From the NCBI GenBank assembly GCA_002712305.1, contig PATE01000004.1, positions 4,577 to 29,485 on the forward strand: a DNA stretch of 24,909 bases. Reading direction: 5' to 3'. The notes beneath the pieces are model-generated. The model searched no databases, was not told the DNA's origin, and saw only the letters and a program-made list of their open reading frames with translations. Shown here one piece after another: positions 5,703 to 20,699 of the stretch. This DNA is from Gemmatimonadota bacterium (GTDB lineage Bacteria; Latescibacterota; UBA2968; UBA8231). Position 1 is the first letter of the stretch; the number at the start of each line of letters is the position of its first letter. A program made the translations under genes and the position numbers.

Positions 5703-5724
5703 GACCACTAGCACGCTGTGACCC

Positions 5725-5729
5725 AGGAG
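5725..5729 (+). promoter_or_regulatory. Ribosome binding site choosing the internal GTG start of the channel-like gene
   Basis: AGGAG lies 9 nt before the GTG at 5739. The upstream in-frame GTG at 5718 has no comparable site, and the AGGAG would fall inside its coding sequence. This supports 5739 as the start. Confidence 0.6.
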
Positions 5730-5738
5730 ACAGATCTC

Positions 5739-6764
5739 GTGAGTCAGTCAGAGGCCGAAACCCAGTCAGCAGACGCGTCGTGCGCCTATGTCCGTGTCGA
5801 CGGCACGCGGTGTCCTGGACAGATCGAAGGTGACGGCAATCTCTGTTTCTGGCATGATCCGGATGCAAGCAAGGAAGAGGATGGAATGCGGTCCCGTCTT
5901 GAGGATTGGGCAGCCACGGGTGAGTCCATGGAGGGTTTCATTCTGCATTTTGCACAACTTCAAGGTGTGAAGTTGTCCTCCCATGAAGGGCGTGTTCTGC
6001 GTGGGGCGAATCTGTTTCGCGCAAACCTGGCCGGGGCGCACATGTGGAATGCCGACCTGCAGGGCACAGATCTGTTGAAGGCCAATCTGGCGGGAGCGAA
6101 TCTCAACGAAACGAACCTGCAGGACGCCCATATCCTCGGTGCCACCTTTGATGGCGCCAAACTCGAGCGTGTAGAATGGGGTGACGCCTGCGTCAACGAA
6201 AAGATGGCATTCGATGCCCAGCGCAGCGGCAATCGGGCAGAGGCGCTGGAAAAGTTTGAAGAAGCGGAAGAGGTGTACCGTACCCTTCGACGGGCCTACG
6301 ACAGTGCGGGACGTTTTGAACAGGCAGGCACGTTCTTCAAGCGTGAAATGACCATGCGCCGAATGCTCTTGCCCCGCTGGTCCATCGACCGGATGTGGTC
6401 GAAGATCGTCAGCGTATTCTGCGCATATGGGGAGAGTCCGCCTCGTGTGATCGTTTCGGCGGCCGTCATCAATCTACTGGTGGCGGTCATGTTCTGGCTC
6501 GTTGGAATCAATGGTCCCGATGTGGGTCTCAATCGGGCTGATGGCCGAATCGGAATTGATATGGCGGCGGGCCTCGAGCACAACGTCTACTCCTACCTGC
6601 ACTGCGTCTACTACAGCGTCGTCACCTTCACGACGCTTGGATACGGAGAAATGACACCGCCCACGCTGTTCACGCGGAATCTCGCAGCAGCTCATGCCTT
6701 CATGGGAGCCTTCATGATGGCCATGTTTGTGGCGGTTTTCGGAAAGAAGATGACTCGTGGCTGA
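5739..6764 (+). CDS. Zinc-finger / pentapeptide-repeat / two-TM potassium-channel-like protein
   Basis: A 341-residue multidomain protein. Residues 15-39 hold a Cys-x9-Cys-x10-Cys-x2-His cluster in a short CAYVRVDGTRCPG...CFWHD unit, a likely zinc-binding knuckle. Residues about 85-145 are pentapeptide repeats of the A(D/N)Lxx type (RGANLFRANLAGAHMWNADL), predicting a right-handed beta-helix. A helical, charged segment with TPR-like spacing (about 160-205) follows. The C-terminus is an ion-channel module: a helix at about 236-256, a pore loop with the filter TFTTLGYGE (296-304), and a second helix to residue 334. The TLGYG filter implies K+ selectivity. It lies downstream of the Mla-linked gene and overlaps the next gene by 8 nt. 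The ligand sensed by the cytoplasmic part is unknown. Confidence 0.85.
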   Translation: MSQSEAETQSADASCAYVRVDGTRCPGQIEGDGNLCFWHDPDASKEEDGMRSRLEDWAATGESMEGFILHFAQLQGVKLSSHEGRVLRGANLFRANLAGAHMWNADLQGTDLLKANLAGANLNETNLQDAHILGATFDGAKLERVEWGDACVNEKMAFDAQRSGNRAEALEKFEEAEEVYRTLRRAYDSAGRFEQAGTFFKREMTMRRMLLPRWSIDRMWSKIVSVFCAYGESPPRVIVSAAVINLLVAVMFWLVGINGPDVGLNRADGRIGIDMAAGLEHNVYSYLHCVYYSVVTFTTLGYGEMTPPTLFTRNLAAAHAFMGAFMMAMFVAVFGKKMTRG

Positions 6765-7806: not shown

Positions 7807-7824
7807 GTGGCGATTCGAGATAAG

Positions 7825-8640
7825 ATGGCTCTACTACACCTCGATGATGTGACCGCCGGCTATCGCCCAGGCTCTCCTGTGCTCCGTCAGTTCTCGCTGA
7901 GCGTAGAGACCGGTGCTTTTGTTGCGCTGATTGGCCCTAACGGCTCGGGCAAGAGCACGTTACTGAGAGTGGTCGCCGGTGTCATGGCGCCCTGGTCAGG
8001 TCGCGTGACGCTCGACGGGCAGGAGCTGAGTGAGTGTAGTCGCCGCGATCTGGCACGCCGGATTGCGGTGGTGCCGCAGGCAGCGGTGAGTGACTTCGAG
8101 TTCTCCGTGGAAGAGACGGTCGGCATGGGACGCCATCCTCATCTCAAGCGTTTCCAGGGCATGGGCGAGGAGGATCGCATCGCCGTGGCTGAAGCGCTCG
8201 AACTTACCGCGACCGCTGAGTTGGCGCGACGCAGCATTCGCGAGCTCTCCGGTGGAGAACGACAACGTGTCATCATTGCCCGGGCCCTGGCGCAGCAGCC
8301 GCAGCTGCTGCTGCTGGATGAGCCGACCAACCATCTCGACATCAATCATCAACTGGAGATTCTGGATCTGCTCAGCGAACTACACGATGAGACGGGGTTG
8401 ACCCTGGTCTGCGTGACTCACGATCTGAATGCCGCCGCTGAATTCGGCGAGCAACTGGTTCTCATCGAGTCCGGCCGGACCCTGGCCGTGGGAGATGTAC
8501 ACCAGGTGCTGACACAGGAGAGAGTCCGACAGGCTTACGGAGTCGATGTCTGGATCGAGCAGATCGGCGGATCCACGCGGATCATACCCAAGTCGCGCAG
8601 GAGACTGGCCAAGGAAACTGCGCACAGGAGTCAGATGTGA
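7825..8640 (+). CDS. btuD: Vitamin B12 / corrinoid ABC importer ATPase
   Basis: A 271-residue ATPase of the FecE/BtuD group that powers corrinoid import through BtuC. All motifs are canonical: Walker A GPNGSGKS (37-44), Q-loop Gln85, signature LSGGERQR (141-148), Walker B LLLLDEPTNHLD (161-172) and the H-loop THD (198-200). This contrasts with the degenerate mlaF in the same window. The ATG at 7825 is preferred over a GTG at 7807, which directly abuts the terminator T-run and leaves no room for a ribosome site. It is the first gene after the cobalamin riboswitch and overlaps btuF by GTGA. Iron-siderophore ATPases share these motifs, but the riboswitch and the adenosyltransferase gene make corrinoid the likely substrate. 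Confidence 0.92.
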   Translation: MALLHLDDVTAGYRPGSPVLRQFSLSVETGAFVALIGPNGSGKSTLLRVVAGVMAPWSGRVTLDGQELSECSRRDLARRIAVVPQAAVSDFEFSVEETVGMGRHPHLKRFQGMGEEDRIAVAEALELTATAELARRSIRELSGGERQRVIIARALAQQPQLLLLDEPTNHLDINHQLEILDLLSELHDETGLTLVCVTHDLNAAAEFGEQLVLIESGRTLAVGDVHQVLTQERVRQAYGVDVWIEQIGGSTRIIPKSRRRLAKETAHRSQM

Positions 8641-9557
8641 AGCGGTGGTTAGGCTCAGGCACAGGGACGTGGATCGTGTTGACGTTCCTGATCGCAGCGA
8701 CGGCACGTGGTCAGGGCCAAGAGGTAGACGACCTCGGCCAGGAACTGACGTTGTCGTCGACCCCGACGCGGATCGTCTCCCTGGCACCGTCAAATACGGA
8801 GATTCTCTTCGCCATTGGCGCTGGAGATCGCGTGGTCGGTGTCACCCAGTGGTGCAACTACCCGACAGCGGTGAAAGACATCGAGCAGGTGGCCGGGTAT
8901 TCCGATCTCAATATCGAACGCATCACTGCCGTGCGCCCCGATCTCATCATCGCTGCGAGGGGCAATGATCTGGAGGGGCTGCGCTCCTTGGAACAGATGG
9001 GTGTGCCCGTTTTCGCTCTCAATGTGCAGACCCTGGACGCCATGATCGACGCTGTGCGCCGGTTGGGTCGCCTGATAGGGACCACGGACCGCAGTGATTC
9101 GCTGGCGAGAATGCTGACGGCACGGTTGGAGGAGGTCGATCGCCGAATCCTCGATCGACCACGGCCACGAGTTCTTTGGGGTTATGTGGCGGAACCGATC
9201 TACACGGCGGGTCCCGGATCGCTCATCGACAATATGATCGAGCGTGCAGGCGGCGAGAATGTCGCACGAGGAGCGCAGGTGACGTGGCCGCAGGTCAGCC
9301 TCGAGACCATCGTCGCGTGGGCACCGCAGGTACTGCTCACCAGCCTGGGAGGTGGCATGCAGCCTGCGGGCGAGATCGATCGATTGCGTGAGATCGATGG
9401 GTGGAAGGAACTGCCCGCGATCAAGAATGGTCGGATCGTTCACGTCGAGGGCGATCTGCTGACCCGGGCAGGCCCCCGACTCGTAGATGCCGTCGAGATC
9501 CTCGCCAACCAGCTGCATCCCGCGAATCCATCAGCGACTGAGACCCCGACGGAATGA
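8637..9557 (+). CDS. btuF: Periplasmic B12 / corrinoid-binding protein
   Basis: A 306-residue substrate-binding protein of the class III (BtuF/FhuD) type. The GTG start has CAGGAG 6 nt upstream and overlaps the btuD stop by 4 nt. A signal peptide is visible (K-R-W, a hydrophobic core, cleavage near ARGQGQ). Mature-domain hallmarks are TRIVSLAPSNTEILFAIGAG at about residues 42-61, the VVGVTQWCNYP strand, the PDLIIAA strand, the long connecting helix, and a second lobe with WPQVSLETIVAWAPQVLL. It would capture corrinoid in the periplasm and deliver it to BtuCD. The family also binds siderophores; the operon context supports B12. Confidence 0.9.
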   Translation: MKRWLGSGTGTWIVLTFLIAATARGQGQEVDDLGQELTLSSTPTRIVSLAPSNTEILFAIGAGDRVVGVTQWCNYPTAVKDIEQVAGYSDLNIERITAVRPDLIIAARGNDLEGLRSLEQMGVPVFALNVQTLDAMIDAVRRLGRLIGTTDRSDSLARMLTARLEEVDRRILDRPRPRVLWGYVAEPIYTAGPGSLIDNMIERAGGENVARGAQVTWPQVSLETIVAWAPQVLLTSLGGGMQPAGEIDRLREIDGWKELPAIKNGRIVHVEGDLLTRAGPRLVDAVEILANQLHPANPSATETPTE

Positions 9558-10618
9558 ATGTTCGACGCCGCGCTGCGGTCTGGTTGCCCTCTCTGCTGGC
9601 GCTGCTCCTTCTGCTTGGAATCCTGTCCCTTGGTACCGGTCCGGTGCCCATACCAGCGGCCGTTGTTGTAGATCTGCTTCTCGAGCAGGAGACGGCTCTG
9701 TCCATGGATGAATCGTCTCATCGTCAGGTACCCTCCGCCAACCTTGATCGTCAGGCGGCGGCGGTCATCGTGAGACAATTGCGGCCACCGAGAATCTTGT
9801 TGGCGGCTCTGGTGGGTGCGAGTCTGGCCCTCAGCGGCGCCGTCATGCAGGGCTTCTTCCAGAATCCCATGGCCGATCCCTATATCATCGGTGTGTCTTC
9901 CGGAGCGGCCCTTGGTGCCACTCTCGCGCTGACCCTGTCCATTTCCTTCTGGATCGTGGGTCTCCACGCGACCTCTCTGTTCGCTTTTGCGGGGGCTCTG
10001 CTGGTGACCTTCATCGTCTACACGGTCTCTGTGCGGGCGGGACGGGTGCCGGCGACTCTGCTGCTGCTTACGGGCGTAGCCGTCGGCTCCATGGCCGCGG
10101 CAGCGACCTCCTTTATCATGCTGTCGGGGGACGACACGTTGCACGCTGTGTTGTATTGGATTCTTGGCAGCTTTTCGTCGCGTCGATGGGAGCATGTTCA
10201 CATGGTCTGGCCCTCGTTGCTGGGGGCTGCCGTCGTGTTGCAGGTCTATGCCCGCGATCTCAATGTGCTTCTGCAAGGCGAGGAGAATGCCCAGTATCTG
10301 GGCGTCGATGTGGAACGACTCAAACGGATCTTCCTTGTCTTAACAGCGTGGCTCACAGCTGCCGCCGTGTCGGTGAGCGGAATCATCGGTTTTGTTGGAC
10401 TGATCGTGCCTCACATGATGAGACTGCTCGTGGGACCAGACCATCGCGTGCTGTTTCCCGCGTCCTTGTTGGGTGGAGCCATACTGATGGTCTGCGCTGA
10501 CATGCTCGCGCGAACGGTGACGGCCCCCGCGGAGGTTCCCGTCGGTATCGTCACAGCTCTGATCGGCTGTCCCTTCTTCCTGTATCTGCTGAGCCGCCGC
10601 CGAGAGTTGGCGCTGTGA
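9554..10618 (+). CDS. btuC: Vitamin B12 / corrinoid ABC importer permease (FecCD family)
   Basis: A 354-residue permease with the FecCD/BtuC signature order: RPPRILLAALVGASLALSGA in the first third, QGFFQNPMADPYIIGVSSGA (the conserved N-P-x-A-x-P-x-x-x-G-x-x-x-G-A element), and a late SGIIGFVGLIVPHMMRLLVG loop that contacts the ATPase. About ten membrane helices are expected. The ATG overlaps the btuF stop (ATGA). An unusually polar insert at about residues 50-70 (DESSHRQVPSANLDRQ) sits after the first helix, where many homologues also have a periplasmic loop. It completes the BtuCDF transporter. Confidence 0.92.
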   Translation: MNVRRRAAVWLPSLLALLLLLGILSLGTGPVPIPAAVVVDLLLEQETALSMDESSHRQVPSANLDRQAAAVIVRQLRPPRILLAALVGASLALSGAVMQGFFQNPMADPYIIGVSSGAALGATLALTLSISFWIVGLHATSLFAFAGALLVTFIVYTVSVRAGRVPATLLLLTGVAVGSMAAAATSFIMLSGDDTLHAVLYWILGSFSSRRWEHVHMVWPSLLGAAVVLQVYARDLNVLLQGEENAQYLGVDVERLKRIFLVLTAWLTAAAVSVSGIIGFVGLIVPHMMRLLVGPDHRVLFPASLLGGAILMVCADMLARTVTAPAEVPVGIVTALIGCPFFLYLLSRRRELAL

Positions 10619-10643
10619 TGTGCCCGGCGTCAACGGATGCGCC

Positions 10644-10648
10644 AGGAG
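10644..10648 (+). promoter_or_regulatory. Ribosome binding site deciding the adenosyltransferase start
   Basis: AGGAG sits 7 nt before the ATG at 10656. It rules against the earlier in-frame GTG at 10620, which would place it inside the coding region. Confidence 0.65.
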
Positions 10649-10655
10649 CATACCT

Positions 10656-11231
10656 ATGGTCAATCTGACGAAGATCTACACCAGGGCCGGGGACGGTGGC
10701 AATACGCATCTGGGGGACGGTTCGAAGGTCCGCAAGACGGACCTTCGCGTGGAGGCCATGGGCGCCGTGGACGAACTCAACGCCATCCTGGGCGTGGTCA
10801 TCAGTCTTTGCCCGGAAGGGGCGCTCGACCGAATCGGTCGCCAGATTCAGAACGATCTGTTCGACGTAGGTGCTGACTTGTGCCGACCCCCAATCACGGC
10901 CGAGCAGGACGGGGACGTGTTGCGACTGGATGCAGGCAAGCCTGATTCCCTGGAACGGTGGATCGACCAATTTAATGCCGGCCTGTCGCCCCTGCGCAGT
11001 TTCGTGCTGCCCGGTGGAACACCCGTCGCCGCACAACTGCATCACGCACGGACAGTCTGCAGACGAGCAGAGCGCCGTGTGATCGCCCTGCGTGACGAGG
11101 GAGAGGGTGTATCGACGACGGTGATCACCTATCTGAATCGGCTTTCGGACCTGTTGTTCGTGCTGGCGCGAGAGAAAACCGATGCGGGGCAGGCCGATAT
11201 TCTCTGGGCGCCGGGTAACGAGCCACAGTAA
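10656..11231 (+). CDS. pduO: Cob(I)alamin adenosyltransferase, PduO type
   Basis: A 191-residue enzyme that transfers the adenosyl group of ATP to cob(I)alamin, making coenzyme B12. The PduO-type N-terminal ATP-binding motif is clear: KIYTRAGDGGNTHLGDGSKV (residues 6-25), followed by V-E-A-M-G-A-V-D-E-L-N-A. The C-terminal half carries the conserved helix ARTVCRRAERRV and the SDLLFVLAR segment typical of the trimeric PduO/MMAB fold. The length is normal. It lies 37 nt after btuC with its own strong ribosome site and is the last gene of the riboswitch-controlled run, coupling corrinoid import to cofactor activation. The genes for B12-dependent enzymes themselves are not in this window. Confidence 0.93.
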   Translation: MVNLTKIYTRAGDGGNTHLGDGSKVRKTDLRVEAMGAVDELNAILGVVISLCPEGALDRIGRQIQNDLFDVGADLCRPPITAEQDGDVLRLDAGKPDSLERWIDQFNAGLSPLRSFVLPGGTPVAAQLHHARTVCRRAERRVIALRDEGEGVSTTVITYLNRLSDLLFVLAREKTDAGQADILWAPGNEPQ

Positions 11232-13773: not shown

Positions 13774-16050
13774 GTGAAGGGCCGTCGCCTGAGCATACAC
13801 GGCCTGCAGGCATCGCGCTATGGCGTGGAAGACCTTGAACTGCCCCTCGGGCAACTGATCTGCCTGTGTGGAGGCGTCGCCTCCGGCGCACACGCGCTCG
13901 CCCAGGAGGTTCTTCTGGGTGAGAGCCGGCGTCGATTCCTGCGTGCCCTGTCTCCGCAGGAACGTGAACAGCTCGGCGGGCTCGGTTATCCGGTGGAGAT
14001 GACCGGTGCCGATGGGCTGCCGCCAGCCCAGCCCTTACCCGCGCTGGGCGTGCATGGACGTGTTCTTGACGTGCTCCACGTACGGTCCGATCTGGCGAGA
14101 ATACTCCGGTCCCTTTCGCAGACGTCCTGTCCGGATTGCGGCGATCTCTGTCGCCAACTGGATGATGATCAGGCAGTCGAACTCCTGCAGGGCGAGGAGG
14201 CGGTGAGCGCACGATCTCTGGTGGTTGCGCCCATGAGGCTCACTCAGCCGCCAACCGATTCGGTGTACGACGAGCTGGTGCGGGCGGGTTTTCCTCGTGT
14301 TCTGGTCGAGGGGCAGGTGGCGCGAATCGATGCCGATGACGCAGAAGGTCGGGCACTGACTCGTCGTGTATCACGACTCGACGTGGTCATCGATCGGCTT
14401 GTCCCGTCCGAGGCGACGCCTTCGCGACTGGGAGAAGCAATCCGCAACGCTCGCGCCATGGCCCAGGGGCAGGCGCTGGTGCGAATTGAGCAGGACGGAT
14501 CCGAGCGTTGGTTCAGTCGGCAGTTCAGCTGCCGTGCTTGCGGGTGGCAAGGTGAGCAACCCCTATGGGACCGCTGGCTTGAGGGGATCGATTTACTTGA
14601 CCAGCTCGATTCAGAAGGCGAACCGGATCGTGCAAACGAAACCCGACTTGCCGGCAGACCGGTGTGGGATCTTGCAAGCTGCAGCATTGGCGAGCTCGAT
14701 TTGTGGCTGGTCGATGTGGGCGAGCACGCCGCAGAAGATCGAAAGTCGCTGATCGGGCACTGCCGATCGAAGCTGACGCCGGCCCTGGAGTTGGGACTGG
14801 GGTCGATCGGCCTGTGGCGGAATTGGAACCGACTCGCCTTTGGTGAGCGTACTCTGCTCAGTGTTGCCGTTGCGATTGCGTCGCGACTCGGGGGTCTCAT
14901 GTATGTCGTACAGCATCCACTTTCAGGTCTCGATGACAGCTCTCTGTCGAGAACTCTGCACGGTCTGTCCAGACTAGTCGAGGCCGGTGGAACGGTCGTC
15001 TACGTCGATGCGGCCCCCACCGTGGTCGCCAAAGCCCAACTGGTGATCGATCTGGCAACCGCCGACGCTGATTCACCCACAGAGATTCCTCTACGGAGCG
15101 ATGGAGCCTCGGAAGGGGTCCTGGTTCTGAGGCCCAGGCCACGATCAAGAGGGGGAGACCTGGCCAATCTGGATCCGGATCTCGAGTTGGACCTGCCGCT
15201 GGGGCAGCTGGTGTGTGTAGATGGTCCAAGTGGCAGTGGCAAGTCTGCGTTGCTGGGGCAAATCGCACGCGCTTTGAGTGGTTCCGGGGGTGATGCAGAC
15301 TATGCCATTGATGGCACACATCTACGACGATGTATCGCCCTGAACGATGTCATCGATGACGCGCGTCCGCAGACGCTGATGCAATTGCTAACCCTTGGGC
15401 GCGATCTGGCACGGCTATTCGCCGCGACGCCTTTAGCGCAGGAGCACCAGATTCCTGCCCAGTGGTTCGAATTGGAACGACCGGGCGGACGTTGCGCCCG
15501 CTGTGAAGGGCAGGGAGAGATCCTACACCGGCTTGATTTCGTCGAAGACCTGCTCGTCGTGTGCCCCGAGTGCGAAGGCCGCCGTTTCAAGGAAGAGATC
15601 TTTGCCGCAACCCTGCGTGGTGCATCAATGGTGGATTTGTTGGAGATGACCGTCGCCGAAGCAGAGCGCTTCCTTCATCGTGAAAAACGCATGCACGCGA
15701 TTCTGCAGGCGGCCACGGCCAGTGGTCTGGGGGCGATGCCTCTGATGACCTCTACGCGCTCAGTCGATCGACTTGTCGTCCAACGGGCCGTGGTGGCCGG
15801 TTACGCGGGGCGTGCGGATCAGAGGGATCTATTTCTGTTGGAGCGTCCGGGAGAGGGGGAACACGAGCATGGCGCTCGTCAGACTCACGATGTCTTGCGA
15901 AGGCTGGTGTCACGGGGAGCCACGGTATTGGCTACGCGAGCCCAGGCGGTGACTCCGGACACGGCCGACTGGCACCTGTTGTTGGGGCCGGGATCGGGTG
16001 TCGAAGGCGGACGTTTGGTAAGCTCTGAGTCCACGGCCTCCTCTGCTTGA
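13774..16050 (+). CDS. Degenerate UvrA paralogue (UvrA-like pseudo-ATPase)
   Basis: A 758-residue protein; true UvrA is about 940. UvrA architecture is clear. The first zinc module keeps CPDC (119-122) and CRAC (253-256). The C-terminal zinc finger is Cys574-x2-Cys577-x19-Cys597-x2-Cys600, exactly the UvrA spacing. The end, TADWHLLLGPGSGVEGGRLV, mirrors UvrA. Catalytic motifs are eroded. Walker A of the first ATPase is CGGVASGAH, lacking Lys. Its Walker B is VVQHP instead of VLDEP, and its H-loop is VDAAPT. In the second ATPase, Walker A GPSGSGKS (484-491) is intact but Walker B is LLERP, the signature LSGGE is replaced (TSTRSVD) and there is no H-loop His. Both zinc fingers surviving while catalysis is lost suggests a non-hydrolytic DNA-binding or regulatory role. 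The GTG start is divergent from the DUF547 gene. Confidence 0.88.
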   Translation: MKGRRLSIHGLQASRYGVEDLELPLGQLICLCGGVASGAHALAQEVLLGESRRRFLRALSPQEREQLGGLGYPVEMTGADGLPPAQPLPALGVHGRVLDVLHVRSDLARILRSLSQTSCPDCGDLCRQLDDDQAVELLQGEEAVSARSLVVAPMRLTQPPTDSVYDELVRAGFPRVLVEGQVARIDADDAEGRALTRRVSRLDVVIDRLVPSEATPSRLGEAIRNARAMAQGQALVRIEQDGSERWFSRQFSCRACGWQGEQPLWDRWLEGIDLLDQLDSEGEPDRANETRLAGRPVWDLASCSIGELDLWLVDVGEHAAEDRKSLIGHCRSKLTPALELGLGSIGLWRNWNRLAFGERTLLSVAVAIASRLGGLMYVVQHPLSGLDDSSLSRTLHGLSRLVEAGGTVVYVDAAPTVVAKAQLVIDLATADADSPTEIPLRSDGASEGVLVLRPRPRSRGGDLANLDPDLELDLPLGQLVCVDGPSGSGKSALLGQIARALSGSGGDADYAIDGTHLRRCIALNDVIDDARPQTLMQLLTLGRDLARLFAATPLAQEHQIPAQWFELERPGGRCARCEGQGEILHRLDFVEDLLVVCPECEGRRFKEEIFAATLRGASMVDLLEMTVAEAERFLHREKRMHAILQAATASGLGAMPLMTSTRSVDRLVVQRAVVAGYAGRADQRDLFLLERPGEGEHEHGARQTHDVLRRLVSRGATVLATRAQAVTPDTADWHLLLGPGSGVEGGRLVSSESTASSA

Positions 16051-16168: not shown

Positions 16169-16642
16169 ATGCGCCTGGCCCAAGCCTTTTCAGAGACCAA
16201 AGTATCCCACCTGGATCTCACCGGTTTCGCACGACTGCCTGCGTCGACGAGCGTCGCCGAGGCGTTGGAACAGATGCGTGTATCCCGATCGACAGTTGTG
16301 CTTGTGGAAGGGGAGGGTGACGGCAAGCTTGTCGGTATCTTTACCGAACGAGACGTCCTGCTGAAAATCGCCGACTCGACCGATGCCCTCGGCGAAGCCG
16401 TTTCGGATCTGATGACGTCCAACCCGCAGGTGCTTACCGTCGATGATACGGTGAGCGAGGCTTTGTCGTTGATGTCTGGTGGGCATTACCGCAACGTGCC
16501 CGTGCTCAGCGAGAGCGGCCAGATCGTCGGCAACCTGTCGCAGCATGCAGTGATTCGGTTCCTCACGGATCATTTTCCCCGCGAGATTTACAATCTCCCT
16601 CCCGATCCCGAACTCATTCCGCGCACACGGGAGGGGGCTTGA
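16169..16642 (+). CDS. CBS-domain-pair protein
   Basis: A 157-residue protein made almost wholly of two CBS motifs forming one Bateman module. The first (about residues 12-72) has the strand-helix-strand pattern ending GKLVGIFTERDVLLKI. The second (about 82-142) includes SDLMTSNPQVLTVDDTVSEA and a GHYRNVPVLSESGQIVGNLS end. Bateman modules bind AMP, ATP, SAM or similar ligands and report energy state to a partner. It is the first gene of the korAB run, 52 nt before korA. No obvious Shine-Dalgarno site precedes the ATG. A partner role for the oxidoreductase is inferred from the neighbourhood. Confidence 0.88.
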   Translation: MRLAQAFSETKVSHLDLTGFARLPASTSVAEALEQMRVSRSTVVLVEGEGDGKLVGIFTERDVLLKIADSTDALGEAVSDLMTSNPQVLTVDDTVSEALSLMSGGHYRNVPVLSESGQIVGNLSQHAVIRFLTDHFPREIYNLPPDPELIPRTREGA

Positions 16643-16694
16643 GCGATCTGATTCCGCCCGACGCACCCAACCGATCCATTCAGGAGAGTGTTTG

Positions 16695-18572
16695 ATGGCC
16701 GAACCTCCGGCCTCCGATTCGTCTGCCATCAATACAGAGATGGCGAGATTGATGGACTCCGTCGTCGTCCGGTTCTCTGGAGATTCTGGCGACGGTATGC
16801 AGTTGACGGGTGATCAATTCACCAATACCTCCGCTGTCCTCGGCAACGACATATCGACCTTTCCTGACTTTCCTGCCGAAATCAGGGCACCTGCCGGCAC
16901 ATTGGCGGGGCTGTCAGGATTCCAGGTCAATCTCGCCGCCTCCGACATCTATACTGCGGGTGATGCACCGCAGGTTCTGGTGGCCATGAATCCGGCCGCC
17001 CTGGCGGCAAATCTGTCGGATCTCGAACCCGGTGGCGTCGTGATCGTCAATGAAGATGCATTCACGCGAAACAACCTGCGTAAGGCTGGATTCGAGTCGA
17101 GTCCACTCGATGACGAATCCTATCTGCAGGGCTACGAGGTTCATCGTGTCCCGCTCACATCGATGACTCGAGCGGCACTGGACGATCTTGATGAGTTGTC
17201 GAATCAGCAAAAGGATCTGTGCAAGAACGCCTTCGCCCTCGGATTGGCCTTCTGGCTTTTCGATCGACCCATGGAGACGACGCTGGCTTTCTATCAGGAG
17301 AAGTTCGCCAAACGTCCACAGGTGGTCAAAGCCAATACGCGGGCGCTGAAAGCGGGCTACGCCTACGGTGAAACGACGGAGGCATTCCAGTCGCGCATGA
17401 GCGTGCCGACGCGAACAGATGATGTTCCGCCCGGCACTTATCGTCGGATCACAGGCAACGAGGCGGTCGTGCTCGGCCTCGTGACGGCTGCACAGAAGGC
17501 GAACAAGACGCTCTTCTACGGCAGCTATCCGATCACACCGGCCAGTCCGATCCTCGAAGGTCTGGCCGCGCTGAAGCGTTTCGATGTACGTACGTTCCAG
17601 GCCGAGGATGAGATCGCCGCCATTGGGTCGGTGATTGGTGCGTCCTTCGCGGGGGCCCTGTCGGTCACTGCGTCGAGCGGACCGGGTGTCTCGCTCAAGA
17701 GCGAAGGAATCAACCTCGCTATCGTCATGGAGTTGCCTCTGGTCGTGGTGGATGTCCAGCGAGGTGGGCCGAGTACGGGGCTGCCTACCAAGACGGAGCA
17801 GGCAGATCTGTTGTCGGTCCTATACGGTCGAAACGGGGAGAGTCCGATTCCCGTCATCGCCGCCGCAACGGCGGCCGAGTGTTTCGACATGGCCATCGAA
17901 GCCTGTCGAATCGCGATCCGGCACATGACCCCCATCTTCCTGTTGACGGACGGATATCTGGCCAACAGTTCAGAGCCGTGGCTGCTGCCGGATCTAGAGT
18001 TGATCGAACCTATCGAGGTCGAACATCGCACCGACCCGAATGGATATCAGCCGTATCTGCGTGATGAGGCGACCTTGGCTCGGCCGTGGGTGCTGCCCGG
18101 CACACCTGGGTTGGAGCATCGTGTCGGCGGTTTGGGCAAGCAGGATGTGACAGGCAACGTGTCCTACGATCCACAGGACAACGAACACATGATCAAAACA
18201 CGCGCCGAAAAGGTGGCACGTGTGGCGGACTATCTACCGCCTCTCGAGGTCAATGGACCCGATCAGGGAGATCTGCTCATCATCGGCTGGGGAGGGACGT
18301 ATGGTGCGATTCGAGCCGCCGTAGAGCACTCGCAATCCGAGGGCAGATCTGTCGCCAGTTGCCATCTGAGGCATTTGAATCCACTGCCCAAGGACTTGGG
18401 CAAGATCCTGAGTCGCTATCGGCAGGTCCTGGTACCAGAACTCAACATGGGGCAGCTGTCGATGTTGCTGCAGGCGCGTTATCCGGTACGTGTCGTCGGT
18501 CTCAACAAGGTCCAGGGGCAACCCTTCCGGATTCGCGAGATCGTTTCCAAGATCAACGATATTCTGACCTGA
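16695..18572 (+). CDS. korA: 2-oxoacid (2-oxoglutarate-type):ferredoxin oxidoreductase, fused gamma-alpha subunit
   Basis: A 625-residue KorA-type subunit. The N-terminal gamma domain begins VVVRFSGDSGDGMQLTGDQF (about 23-42), then FPAEIRAPAGTLAGLSGFQV. The alpha domain contains GSYPITPASPILEGLA, FQAEDEIAAIGSVIGASFAG and ASSGPGVSLKSEGINLA, and the VDVQRGGPSTGLPTKTEQAD block. These are the thiamine-pyrophosphate-partner motifs of the family. With KorB it would oxidatively decarboxylate 2-oxoglutarate to succinyl-CoA while reducing ferredoxin, or run in reverse for CO2 fixation. The ATG at 16695 has AGGAG 8 nt upstream; a TTG one codon earlier is unlikely. The substrate class is inferred from family likeness; other 2-oxoacids cannot be excluded. 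Confidence 0.9.
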   Translation: MAEPPASDSSAINTEMARLMDSVVVRFSGDSGDGMQLTGDQFTNTSAVLGNDISTFPDFPAEIRAPAGTLAGLSGFQVNLAASDIYTAGDAPQVLVAMNPAALAANLSDLEPGGVVIVNEDAFTRNNLRKAGFESSPLDDESYLQGYEVHRVPLTSMTRAALDDLDELSNQQKDLCKNAFALGLAFWLFDRPMETTLAFYQEKFAKRPQVVKANTRALKAGYAYGETTEAFQSRMSVPTRTDDVPPGTYRRITGNEAVVLGLVTAAQKANKTLFYGSYPITPASPILEGLAALKRFDVRTFQAEDEIAAIGSVIGASFAGALSVTASSGPGVSLKSEGINLAIVMELPLVVVDVQRGGPSTGLPTKTEQADLLSVLYGRNGESPIPVIAAATAAECFDMAIEACRIAIRHMTPIFLLTDGYLANSSEPWLLPDLELIEPIEVEHRTDPNGYQPYLRDEATLARPWVLPGTPGLEHRVGGLGKQDVTGNVSYDPQDNEHMIKTRAEKVARVADYLPPLEVNGPDQGDLLIIGWGGTYGAIRAAVEHSQSEGRSVASCHLRHLNPLPKDLGKILSRYRQVLVPELNMGQLSMLLQARYPVRVVGLNKVQGQPFRIREIVSKINDILT

Positions 18573-18595
18573 TCCTGCCAAGAGGAAGTAGATAG

Positions 18596-19648
18596 ATGAC
18601 CGATACTGTCGAACCGCCCGTGATCAAACCGCCGGCAGGCGAACCATCACCCCTGACGCGCAAGGACTTCGTCTCTGATCAGGAAGTTCGTTGGTGTCCT
18701 GGGTGCGGCGACTATGCGATTCTGGCGCAGATGCAGAAAATCCTGGCCGAAATCGGTGTGCCCCGTGAGCAGACGGTTTTTGTGTCGGGCATCGGCTGCT
18801 CCAGTCGTTTTCCGTATTACATGGATACGTACGGCATTCATTCGATCCACGGACGTGCGCCCACGCTGGCGACGGGCATCAAGGCGGTGAATCCCGACTT
18901 GACTGTGTGGGTGATTACTGGTGACGGCGATGGTCTGTCCATCGGCGGGAACCACCTGCTTCATTGCATGCGCCGCAACGTCGATGTGAAGGTCATTCTA
19001 TTCAACAACCGGGTGTACGGCCTGACGAAGGGACAATACTCACCGACGTCACTGCCAGGGCATCGCACGAAGTCGACGCCGATGGGCTCCATCGACTATC
19101 CCCTCAATCCAATTTCGGTTGCCATTGGTGCTGAAGCGACGTTCGTCGCTCGGACACAGGACACCAACACCAAACACCTGCAGGAAACCCTGCGTCGGGC
19201 TGCCGCGCACCGTGGAACGGCCTTTGTGGAGATCTTTCAGAATTGTGTCGTGTACAATCCCACCGCTTGGGACCACACGACCGACTCCAGCGTTCGTGAC
19301 GACAACATTGTGTATCTGGAGGAGGGGAAGCCACTCGTGTTCGGCCGCGACAGTGACAAGGGCATCCGTGTGAATGGGATGATCCCGGAAGTGATTGATG
19401 TGGATTCCAATGGTGCCGCAAATGAAGGGTTGGCAGTGCATCAGGAGTCCCTCGACAACAGTTCCTACGCCTACATGCTCAGCCGCATGCAGCATCCCGA
19501 GTTCCCACTACCCTTCGGCGTGCTGCGCTGCGTTGATCGCCCTGCCTACACAGACATGCTTGTCGATCAGGTTCAGCAATCCATCGACAGCAGCGATGCA
19601 GATCTCAATGCGCTGCTGCACAGCAGTGACACCTGGGTTGTTGAGTAG
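18596..19648 (+). CDS. korB: 2-oxoacid:ferredoxin oxidoreductase beta subunit (TPP-binding)
   Basis: A 350-residue beta subunit. Thiamine-pyrophosphate motifs are visible: WCPGCGDYAIL near 33-43, FVSGIGCSSRFPYYM, HSIHGRAPTLATGIK, and GDGDGLSIGGNHLLH ending at ILFNNRVYGLTKGQYSPTS. Conserved Cys residues are in the expected places. No separate 4Fe-4S domain is seen, so electrons presumably leave via a ferredoxin encoded elsewhere. It follows korA by 23 nt with an AGAGGA ribosome site. The C-terminal third (about 240-350) is longer than in the shortest archaeal KorB proteins, as in bacterial forms. It precedes a second CBS gene. Confidence 0.92.
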   Translation: MTDTVEPPVIKPPAGEPSPLTRKDFVSDQEVRWCPGCGDYAILAQMQKILAEIGVPREQTVFVSGIGCSSRFPYYMDTYGIHSIHGRAPTLATGIKAVNPDLTVWVITGDGDGLSIGGNHLLHCMRRNVDVKVILFNNRVYGLTKGQYSPTSLPGHRTKSTPMGSIDYPLNPISVAIGAEATFVARTQDTNTKHLQETLRRAAAHRGTAFVEIFQNCVVYNPTAWDHTTDSSVRDDNIVYLEEGKPLVFGRDSDKGIRVNGMIPEVIDVDSNGAANEGLAVHQESLDNSSYAYMLSRMQHPEFPLPFGVLRCVDRPAYTDMLVDQVQQSIDSSDADLNALLHSSDTWVVE

Positions 19649-19659
19649 GTGAGACTTCG

Positions 19660-20190
19660 ATGACGGAAGCTCCGATGGACGGGATCGAGTGTCCCGCCTG
19701 TGGTCACGAGAATATCTCCGGTGCTGATACGTGCGAGGAGTGTGTGGCCACCCTCGTGGTGGACCAGATCGAAGATAGAGAGACGGCAGCCTTACAGAGC
19801 TCGCTGCTCCGCCTGGGCCCCCGGCATCCCGAGAGTGTCGATCTGACGGCGACGTTGGCAGATGTCATCGGCAAACTGCAGAAGCGGAACGTTGGGTGTG
19901 TGTTGGTCACAGGTCACGGCGAAGAACTCGTGGGGATATTCACCGAGCGCGATGTTCTGTATCGTGTGGCGGGCTTGATCGATCGAGCAGCCTCGATCCC
20001 GGTGGAGAGCCTGATGACGCCGAAGCCTTCCACCCTTCGTCCCTCCGATCCCATCAGTCACGCCCTCCATCTGATGGCCGTCCACGGATTTCGACATATT
20101 CCCCTCATCGATGATGATGGGCGACCCGTGGGTGTCGTATCTCTGCGGGACATCATTCGCTTTATGAGTCAGGGCGTCGCCGTCGCGTGA
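19660..20190 (+). CDS. Zinc-ribbon plus CBS-pair protein
   Basis: A 176-residue protein. Residues 11-28 form a four-Cys zinc ribbon, CPACGHEN followed by CEEC. After a helical linker comes a Bateman module: the first CBS (about 60-112) ends LVGIFTERDVLYRVAG, much like the equivalent segment of the CBS protein upstream of korA. The second (about 118-172) has VESLMTPKPSTLRPSDPISHA and FRHIPLIDDDGRPVGVVSLR. The shared GIFTERDVL stretch suggests the two CBS proteins are paralogues. It starts 11 nt after korB and overlaps the next gene through GTGA. It may sense adenylates and act on the oxidoreductase or on expression; that is inference. Confidence 0.88.
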   Translation: MTEAPMDGIECPACGHENISGADTCEECVATLVVDQIEDRETAALQSSLLRLGPRHPESVDLTATLADVIGKLQKRNVGCVLVTGHGEELVGIFTERDVLYRVAGLIDRAASIPVESLMTPKPSTLRPSDPISHALHLMAVHGFRHIPLIDDDGRPVGVVSLRDIIRFMSQGVAVA

Positions 20191-20699
20191 GTGTCTCAGC
20201 CCGCACCTGTGCAGGGCGGGGCAGCCTTGCCGCAGTGATTCTGCTGGCGCTCATAGTTGGGATGCCCAACCCAACCGATGCCGAACTCCGCTCGGAGACA
20301 CTCAGTCGTCCCCGCACCATCATCGGCTCGCAATGGCTCGATCTGCATTTACGTCTTCTGGGTCTGGAATTGACCTACCCCGCATACCGTGTACACATCG
20401 GTCTCAGCGAACAGAAACCGCAGATCGTATTCGATTTCTGGATCAGTGCCCCCCTGGCTCGTCATCTCGAGGCTGCTGGGCGAAGCGAAACAAAGAGGGT
20501 CCTGTCTTACCACGCCGCGGGTATTCGAGATCAACTACAGGACATGCTGGATCAGCACTTCGCGGATCTGGCGGCACAATTTGATGCGGAGACAGATCTG
20601 ACAGGTACGTTCTACACGCCCGCCGATGATGTGAAGGCGCCGCCTGTCGAGTTGGCCCAATGGGCCGAGAATGAGTTCAGCTGGCCCACCAGGCCCTGA
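20187..20699 (+). CDS. Small exported protein of unknown function
   Basis: A 170-residue protein I do not recognise. The GTG start overlaps the preceding CBS gene's stop (GTGA), so the two are coupled. The first 34 residues are a signal peptide (Arg residues, AAVILLALIVG core, cleavage near TDAEL). The mature chain has a Trp-Leu-Asp-Leu-His strand, a VFDFWISAPLARHLEA region and a long helix containing RDQLQDMLDQHFADLAAQFD. That alternation looks like an alpha-beta domain. No metal or catalytic motif is seen. Its place at the end of the korAB operon is unexplained because its neighbours are cytoplasmic. It converges on a minus-strand gene 80 nt away, and that gap has no clear terminator. Confidence 0.65.
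   Translation: MSVSARTCAGRGSLAAVILLALIVGMPNPTDAELRSETLSRPRTIIGSQWLDLHLRLLGLELTYPAYRVHIGLSEQKPQIVFDFWISAPLARHLEAAGRSETKRVLSYHAAGIRDQLQDMLDQHFADLAAQFDAETDLTGTFYTPADDVKAPPVELAQWAENEFSWPTRP

Follow-up and report, generated by a model that had tools for sequence, protein, structure and literature searches.

The window analyzed here is a 24,909-nucleotide stretch of contig PATE01000004.1 from a member of the Latescibacterota (GTDB lineage UBA2968; UBA8231). The gene of interest lies at 13774..16050 on the plus strand (all positions are those of the window, and all window genes and features described below are on this strand) and encodes a 758-aa protein that the open reading frame, the NCBIfam uvra profile and an AlphaFold2 (AF2) model identify as a short relative of the DNA repair protein UvrA, probably a pseudo-ATPase. 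We refer to it and its close homologs as short UvrA. No start codon other than the GTG at 13774 is available between the preceding in-frame stop and the conserved N-terminus.

Homology and predicted fold

The homology to UvrA is far beyond chance. The NCBIfam uvra model matches with E = 2e-74, both ABC modules being homologous, although the 251 bits fall short of the equivalog cut-off of 729.8. Pfam UvrA_inter (PF17760) matches with E = 1e-9 and 38.6 bits (cut-off 23.3), and a phmmer search against UvrA proteins of known structure gave 3pih with E = 3e-61. The AF2 model (mean pLDDT 78, pTM 0.52) finds its best structural matches among UvrA chains, which align end to end with Z scores of about 20-24; against 9gy7, a UvrA-UvrB-DNA complex, Z is 23.6 with an rmsd of 24.6 over 630 residues. 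The high whole-chain rmsd (about 25 Å) arises because the placement of domains in the model is uncertain or different. Confidence is low at residues 429-464 and across much of 570-605, and since the domain arrangement is uncertain, site geometry was not taken from the model.

Zinc modules and the missing insertion domain

Three zinc modules are found in UvrA, with Zn1 bracketing the UvrB-binding domain, Zn2 holding the insertion domain (ID) in place and Zn3 lying within signature II. Residues at these and other sites were tabulated for 24 short members (a 25th is a fragment) and 46 other UvrA rows. The original prediction, made from the DNA letters of the window, reported CPDC and CRAC motifs and a four-cysteine finger with the spacing of UvrA, and stated that both zinc modules are kept. 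These motifs are present. The first half of Zn1 (14128..14151) consists of C119/C122 with an additional Cys126, all in invariant columns of the 23 members aligned there, and the second half of C253/C256 (14530..14541; 24 of 24). The finger, C574-x2-C577-x19-C597-x2-C600 (15493..15573), is Zn3, with the spacing of E. coli C740/743/763/766. All four Zn1 and all four Zn3 cysteines are retained in every one of the 24 short members.

What the prediction overlooked is the remaining module. A short variable linker (14545..14763) takes the place of both Zn2 and the DNA-binding ID. Equivalents of E. coli Zn2 residues C277/C280/C406/C409 and of the ID occur in none of the 24 short members; the Zn2 cysteines are found in all of the aligned UvrAs from other phyla. 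Consistent with this, Pfam UvrA_DNA-bind (PF17755) had no match in the short members scanned, though it was found in a 1988-aa UvrA of the same genome. By contrast, each short member scanned had a PF17760 match that passed the cut-off of that model.

ATPase sites

Judged by its residues, the proximal ATPase site of short UvrA is dead. Walker A-I survives as the remnant GGVASGAH (residues 33-40; 13870..13893), and the equivalents of K37 and S38 are missing from all 24 members, as are the Q-loop and the signature II Ser. Walker B-I DEP is replaced by VVQHP (residues 378-382; 14905..14919), with Asp at its position in two of the 24 and Glu in one.

At the distal site, the residues that hold the nucleotide are kept. 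Walker A-II, GPSGSGKS (residues 484-491; 15223..15246), is intact, its Gly, Lys and Ser or Thr being present throughout (24/24). The facing segment (14818..14847) comprises the adenine-stacking R349, five residues before a degenerate signature I (LAFGE), together with G357 and E358; the Arg and Gly are each found in 23 of 24 members and the Glu in all. The catalytic residues are lost: LLERP (residues 688-692; 15835..15849) replaces Walker B-II DEP, the Glu is gone from 22 members and kept in two, and no member has the Q-loop, while Asp or Glu persists at the metal position in 23. A close pair of relatives (L023 and L028), unlike the rest of the short clade, has an intact Walker B-II (LIDEP).

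The account originally given of this copy, with no Lys in Walker A-I, an intact Walker A-II and both DEP motifs replaced, is therefore accurate, and homologs across the clade have the same losses. Two of the reported losses do not extend to the whole family: the H-loop His is absent from this copy, but the H-loop I His is retained in 15 of 24 relatives, and Walker B-II is lost from this copy and most of the clade, but not from the LIDEP pair. The losses that are (nearly) family-wide are Walker A-I Lys and Ser, both Q-loops and the Walker B-I Glu. Short UvrA does not have the two intact ATPase sites by which a functional UvrA is recognized.

Tight nucleotide binding is a property of the distal site of UvrA; the K37A mutant retains binding with nearly all ATPase activity gone, and binding also persists when the distal Walker B Glu is mutated. 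The role of the adenine-stacking Arg, R480 in UvrA, has been described as well (PMC6486640). Because the holding residues are kept and the catalytic residues lost, one pocket in most members, this one included, should bind nucleotide without hydrolyzing it, by analogy with K37A. The residue table thus bears out the idea of a pseudo-ATPase.

DNA- and UvrB-facing residues

The DNA-binding Arg R712 of UvrA is replaced by Ala546 (15409..15411), and Ala occupies this position in 24/24 short members; 45 of the 46 other UvrA rows have Arg there. At the R730 position, 21 of the 24 have a residue other than Arg, Lys or His. E. coli UvrA with R712A/R722A/R724A/R730A is dead in repair, both global and coupled (PMC3025350), and a form of the UvrA relative Ecm16 without the ID does not bind DNA (PMC10192343). 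With the ID absent, R712 changed to Ala and R730 altered, UvrA-like lesion binding is therefore unlikely, and the earlier suggestion that the protein may bind DNA is not supported for binding in the manner of UvrA.

The UvrB-binding domain (UvrA_inter, residues 146-239; 14209..14490) is retained, and two of its positions are invariant: R218, equivalent to E. coli R216, and R224, at the position of E222. R216 and E222 are the residues that were used to disrupt the UvrB surface of E. coli UvrA (PMC3025350). The first is kept in 24 of 24 short members; Arg at the second is also found in a few of the other UvrA rows. A compensating change was sought in UvrB at R183/R194/R196/E215, which we take to be the residues facing UvrA, and none was seen, as the host UvrB keeps all four. 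Nor did a search for an additional protein with UvrB domain 2, a possible altered partner, turn up a candidate: matches above the cut-off in the searched genomes were only of UvrB and Mfd lengths. Canonical UvrAs from these genomes show stronger conservation in their ATPase core than in the UvrB-binding domain. In short UvrA the two are about equally conserved, and the signature II/Zn3 region is the most conserved.

Distribution, phylogeny and selection

The original prediction had been made subject to a true uvrA existing elsewhere in the genome. The host metagenome-assembled genome has two other UvrAs, of 933 aa and a double-length 1988 aa, both with Walker A and B intact, and it also encodes UvrB, UvrC and Mfd. 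The 1988-aa protein (L039; G000:C137:7000-15500) has two UvrA units per chain; almost all genomes of the class encode such a protein, as do some members of other phyla. The 933-aa protein (L038; G000:C66:37500-43000) is divergent; UvrA_DNA-bind goes undetected in it despite the presence of Zn2 cysteines and an insertion, and it has Gln at the E222 position.

Within the host's Latescibacterota family, all 25 genomes carry short UvrA; none of the 39 other genomes of the phylum that were searched does. When about 85,000 named species genomes were scanned by pattern, short forms came up only in the host family, with the limit that the scan needs shared short motifs and distant forms could escape it. 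Using a single sequence as query, a scan of the named genomes returned no relatives; an alignment-based scan recovered them. The short forms are monophyletic (FastTree support 1.0; SH-aLRT 100). In the FastTree phylogeny they join the family's divergent 933-aa UvrA, with a support of just 0.69; in a mixture-model tree their stem is long and no sister group is resolved.

Short UvrA is under purifying selection and is not decaying, as had been proposed from the open frame of this one copy. Wherever the contig permits a view of it, the frame is open throughout the family, and dN/dS for close pairs is 0.09-0.28. In the one pair of genomes (G018 and G024) for which other genes were compared, short uvrA gives 0.12 and three other UvrA genes give 0.11, 0.12 and 0.13. 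Between genera, divergence is faster than that of other UvrAs: the short forms of the host genome and G018 (G000-G018) are 34% identical, versus 50% and 68-70% for the others.

Genomic context

Downstream of short uvrA is a tight run of genes (16169-20699) encoding a CBS-domain protein (16169..16642; Pfam CBS), the alpha subunit of a 2-oxoacid:acceptor oxidoreductase (korA, 16695..18572; TIGR03710), its beta subunit (korB, 18596..19648; TIGR02177), a protein with zinc-ribbon and CBS domains, and an apparently secreted 170-aa protein. The last belongs to no known family and was found in five of five tested genomes of the host family and none of eight sister genomes. In 24 of 25 family genomes, the window included, korA-korB lies downstream of short uvrA, usually with the CBS gene between; most family neighborhoods, though not every one, have a homolog of this CBS gene next to korA. 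CBS-korA-korB also occurs in nine genomes of three sister families, none of which has short UvrA, and for that reason the simplest reading is that short uvrA joined an older operon. Longer-range gene order around it is also kept. In one genome (G003; L043, G003:C46), CBS-korA-korB-CBS2 is gone and the locus closes from short uvrA directly to the next gene; korA had no match anywhere in this assembly, which is 86% complete. Its short UvrA is intact, with all of the family features.

Promoter and terminator patterns were no more frequent than in shuffled sequence. A possible link to defense was set aside, as PADLOC gave only weak and short matches. Also encoded in the window are a corrinoid/B12-type ABC transporter (BtuD-, BtuF- and BtuC-like) followed by a cobalamin adenosyltransferase (7807-11231), and a pentapeptide-repeat protein (5718-6764) whose C-terminus weakly matches a voltage-gated potassium channel model.

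Comparison with known UvrA proteins

With class I UvrA (UvrA1; TIGR00630, PDB 2R6F/3PIH/3UWX), short UvrA shares two ABC modules per chain, the UvrB-binding domain with Zn1, Zn3 in signature II, Walker A-II and the adenine-stacking Arg. Unlike class I, it is without the ID, Zn2, the proximal ATPase site, the distal catalytic Glu and the Q-loops, and it carries the substitutions of R712 by Ala and E222 by Arg. Class II proteins (D. radiodurans UvrA2, Ecm16, DrrC) are likewise paralogs that occur beside a normal UvrA and have lost one accessory domain. However, in them it is the UvrB-binding domain and Zn1 that are missing, with the ID and Zn2 present, the opposite of the loss seen here; short UvrA also lacks ATPase residues. 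In Ecm16-type proteins, which have no UvrB-binding domain, the ID is needed for recognition of DNA and drug (PMC10192343). Engineered E. coli UvrA variants, delta290-400 and K37A, are missing the same parts (the ID and the proximal Walker A Lys, respectively), but keep R712 and the distal ATPase, both of which the natural protein has lost. By its residues and domains, short UvrA descends from UvrA and yet fits neither functional UvrA nor class II UvrA. Our literature search returned no paper on a natural inactive or ID-less UvrA, and none on UvrA of Latescibacterota.

Possible function

We tentatively favor a role for short UvrA as a non-catalytic, nucleotide-binding adaptor derived from UvrA, acting most likely on nucleotide excision repair (NER). 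ATP or ADP would be held at the distal site without turnover, and the protein would not scan DNA for lesions. The domain derived from the UvrB-binding domain, the UvrA dimer surface, or both would engage another protein; the likeliest targets would be the host's UvrB, Mfd or intact UvrA (as a heterodimer), which short UvrA might compete for or modulate. A bolder version, which we consider rather doubtful, is that short UvrA constitutes a third UvrA domain class (UvrB-binding domain kept, ID and catalysis lost) and serves as a natural decoy or adaptor, locked on its nucleotide, that would tie up UvrB, Mfd or UvrA or steer them elsewhere and so regulate bacterial excision repair from within.

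Several observations weigh against the adaptor reading. No NER gene lies near short uvrA in the window; CBS-korA-korB is found downstream instead. Distal hydrolysis may persist in some members, given the intact-looking DEP of L023 and L028. In addition, E222 of the UvrB surface is Arg in 24/24 short members. Because this change is invariant while the residues of the host UvrB are unchanged, canonical UvrB binding may be altered or lost, and a UvrB-related role is possible but clouded.

The position of the gene might point to a different function, in which short UvrA is a nucleotide-sensing scaffold for the CBS-KorAB operon (including the zinc-ribbon/CBS protein), aiding enzyme assembly or control by energy state. 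The link to korAB has been kept in 24 of 25 genomes despite divergence of the protein to about 33% identity, one nucleotide pocket is retained, and CBS domains commonly bind adenine nucleotides. Nevertheless, the conserved longer-range gene order implies that this position may just be inherited, genomes of three sister families run CBS-korA-korB without short UvrA, and a KorAB-tied role is weakened because G003 lost korAB and kept a full-featured short UvrA. We regard this metabolic exaptation as unlikely, and an adaptor or regulator role as more likely on excision repair than on KorAB.

Somewhat less probable still is that short UvrA is a diverged but active half of a heterodimer in excision or transcription-coupled repair, with an intact partner providing DNA binding and ATPase activity. 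E. coli UvrA without the ID, or with K37A, retains preferential repair of the transcribed strand, and short UvrA has neither the ID nor this Lys; against this, the mutant of the R712 quartet carries out neither global nor coupled repair (PMC3025350), and the R712 position is Ala in every short member.

That the gene is a decaying duplicate, open by chance, is very improbable and already contradicted by the data: many catalytic motifs are lost and divergence between genera is fast, but the frame is open family-wide, dN/dS in the one genome pair compared equals that of the intact UvrAs, and the cysteine, Walker A-II, R216 and C126 positions are invariant. Equally improbable is the self-resistance or drug-removal role (Ecm16/DrrC/UvrA2 type) raised in the original prediction, since, although antibiotic producers are known to have UvrA paralogs short of full NER function (PMC10192343), such proteins have the reverse domain content, and scans of window proteins with Pfam and NCBIfam revealed no biosynthetic genes.

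DNA-repair pseudoenzymes have been little explored, and short UvrA appears to be a naturally dead UvrA that has been retained throughout the divergence of the genera of this family; in the one pair compared, its constraint resembles that of working UvrAs. As a natural combined mutant, with no ID, no proximal ATPase and no R712, it separates the UvrB-facing from the DNA-facing parts of UvrA. Should short UvrA turn out to bind UvrB or Mfd, it would modulate bacterial excision repair from within, and we know no example of such a protein; if it binds neither, the UvrA fold would be one that can be recruited to another job.
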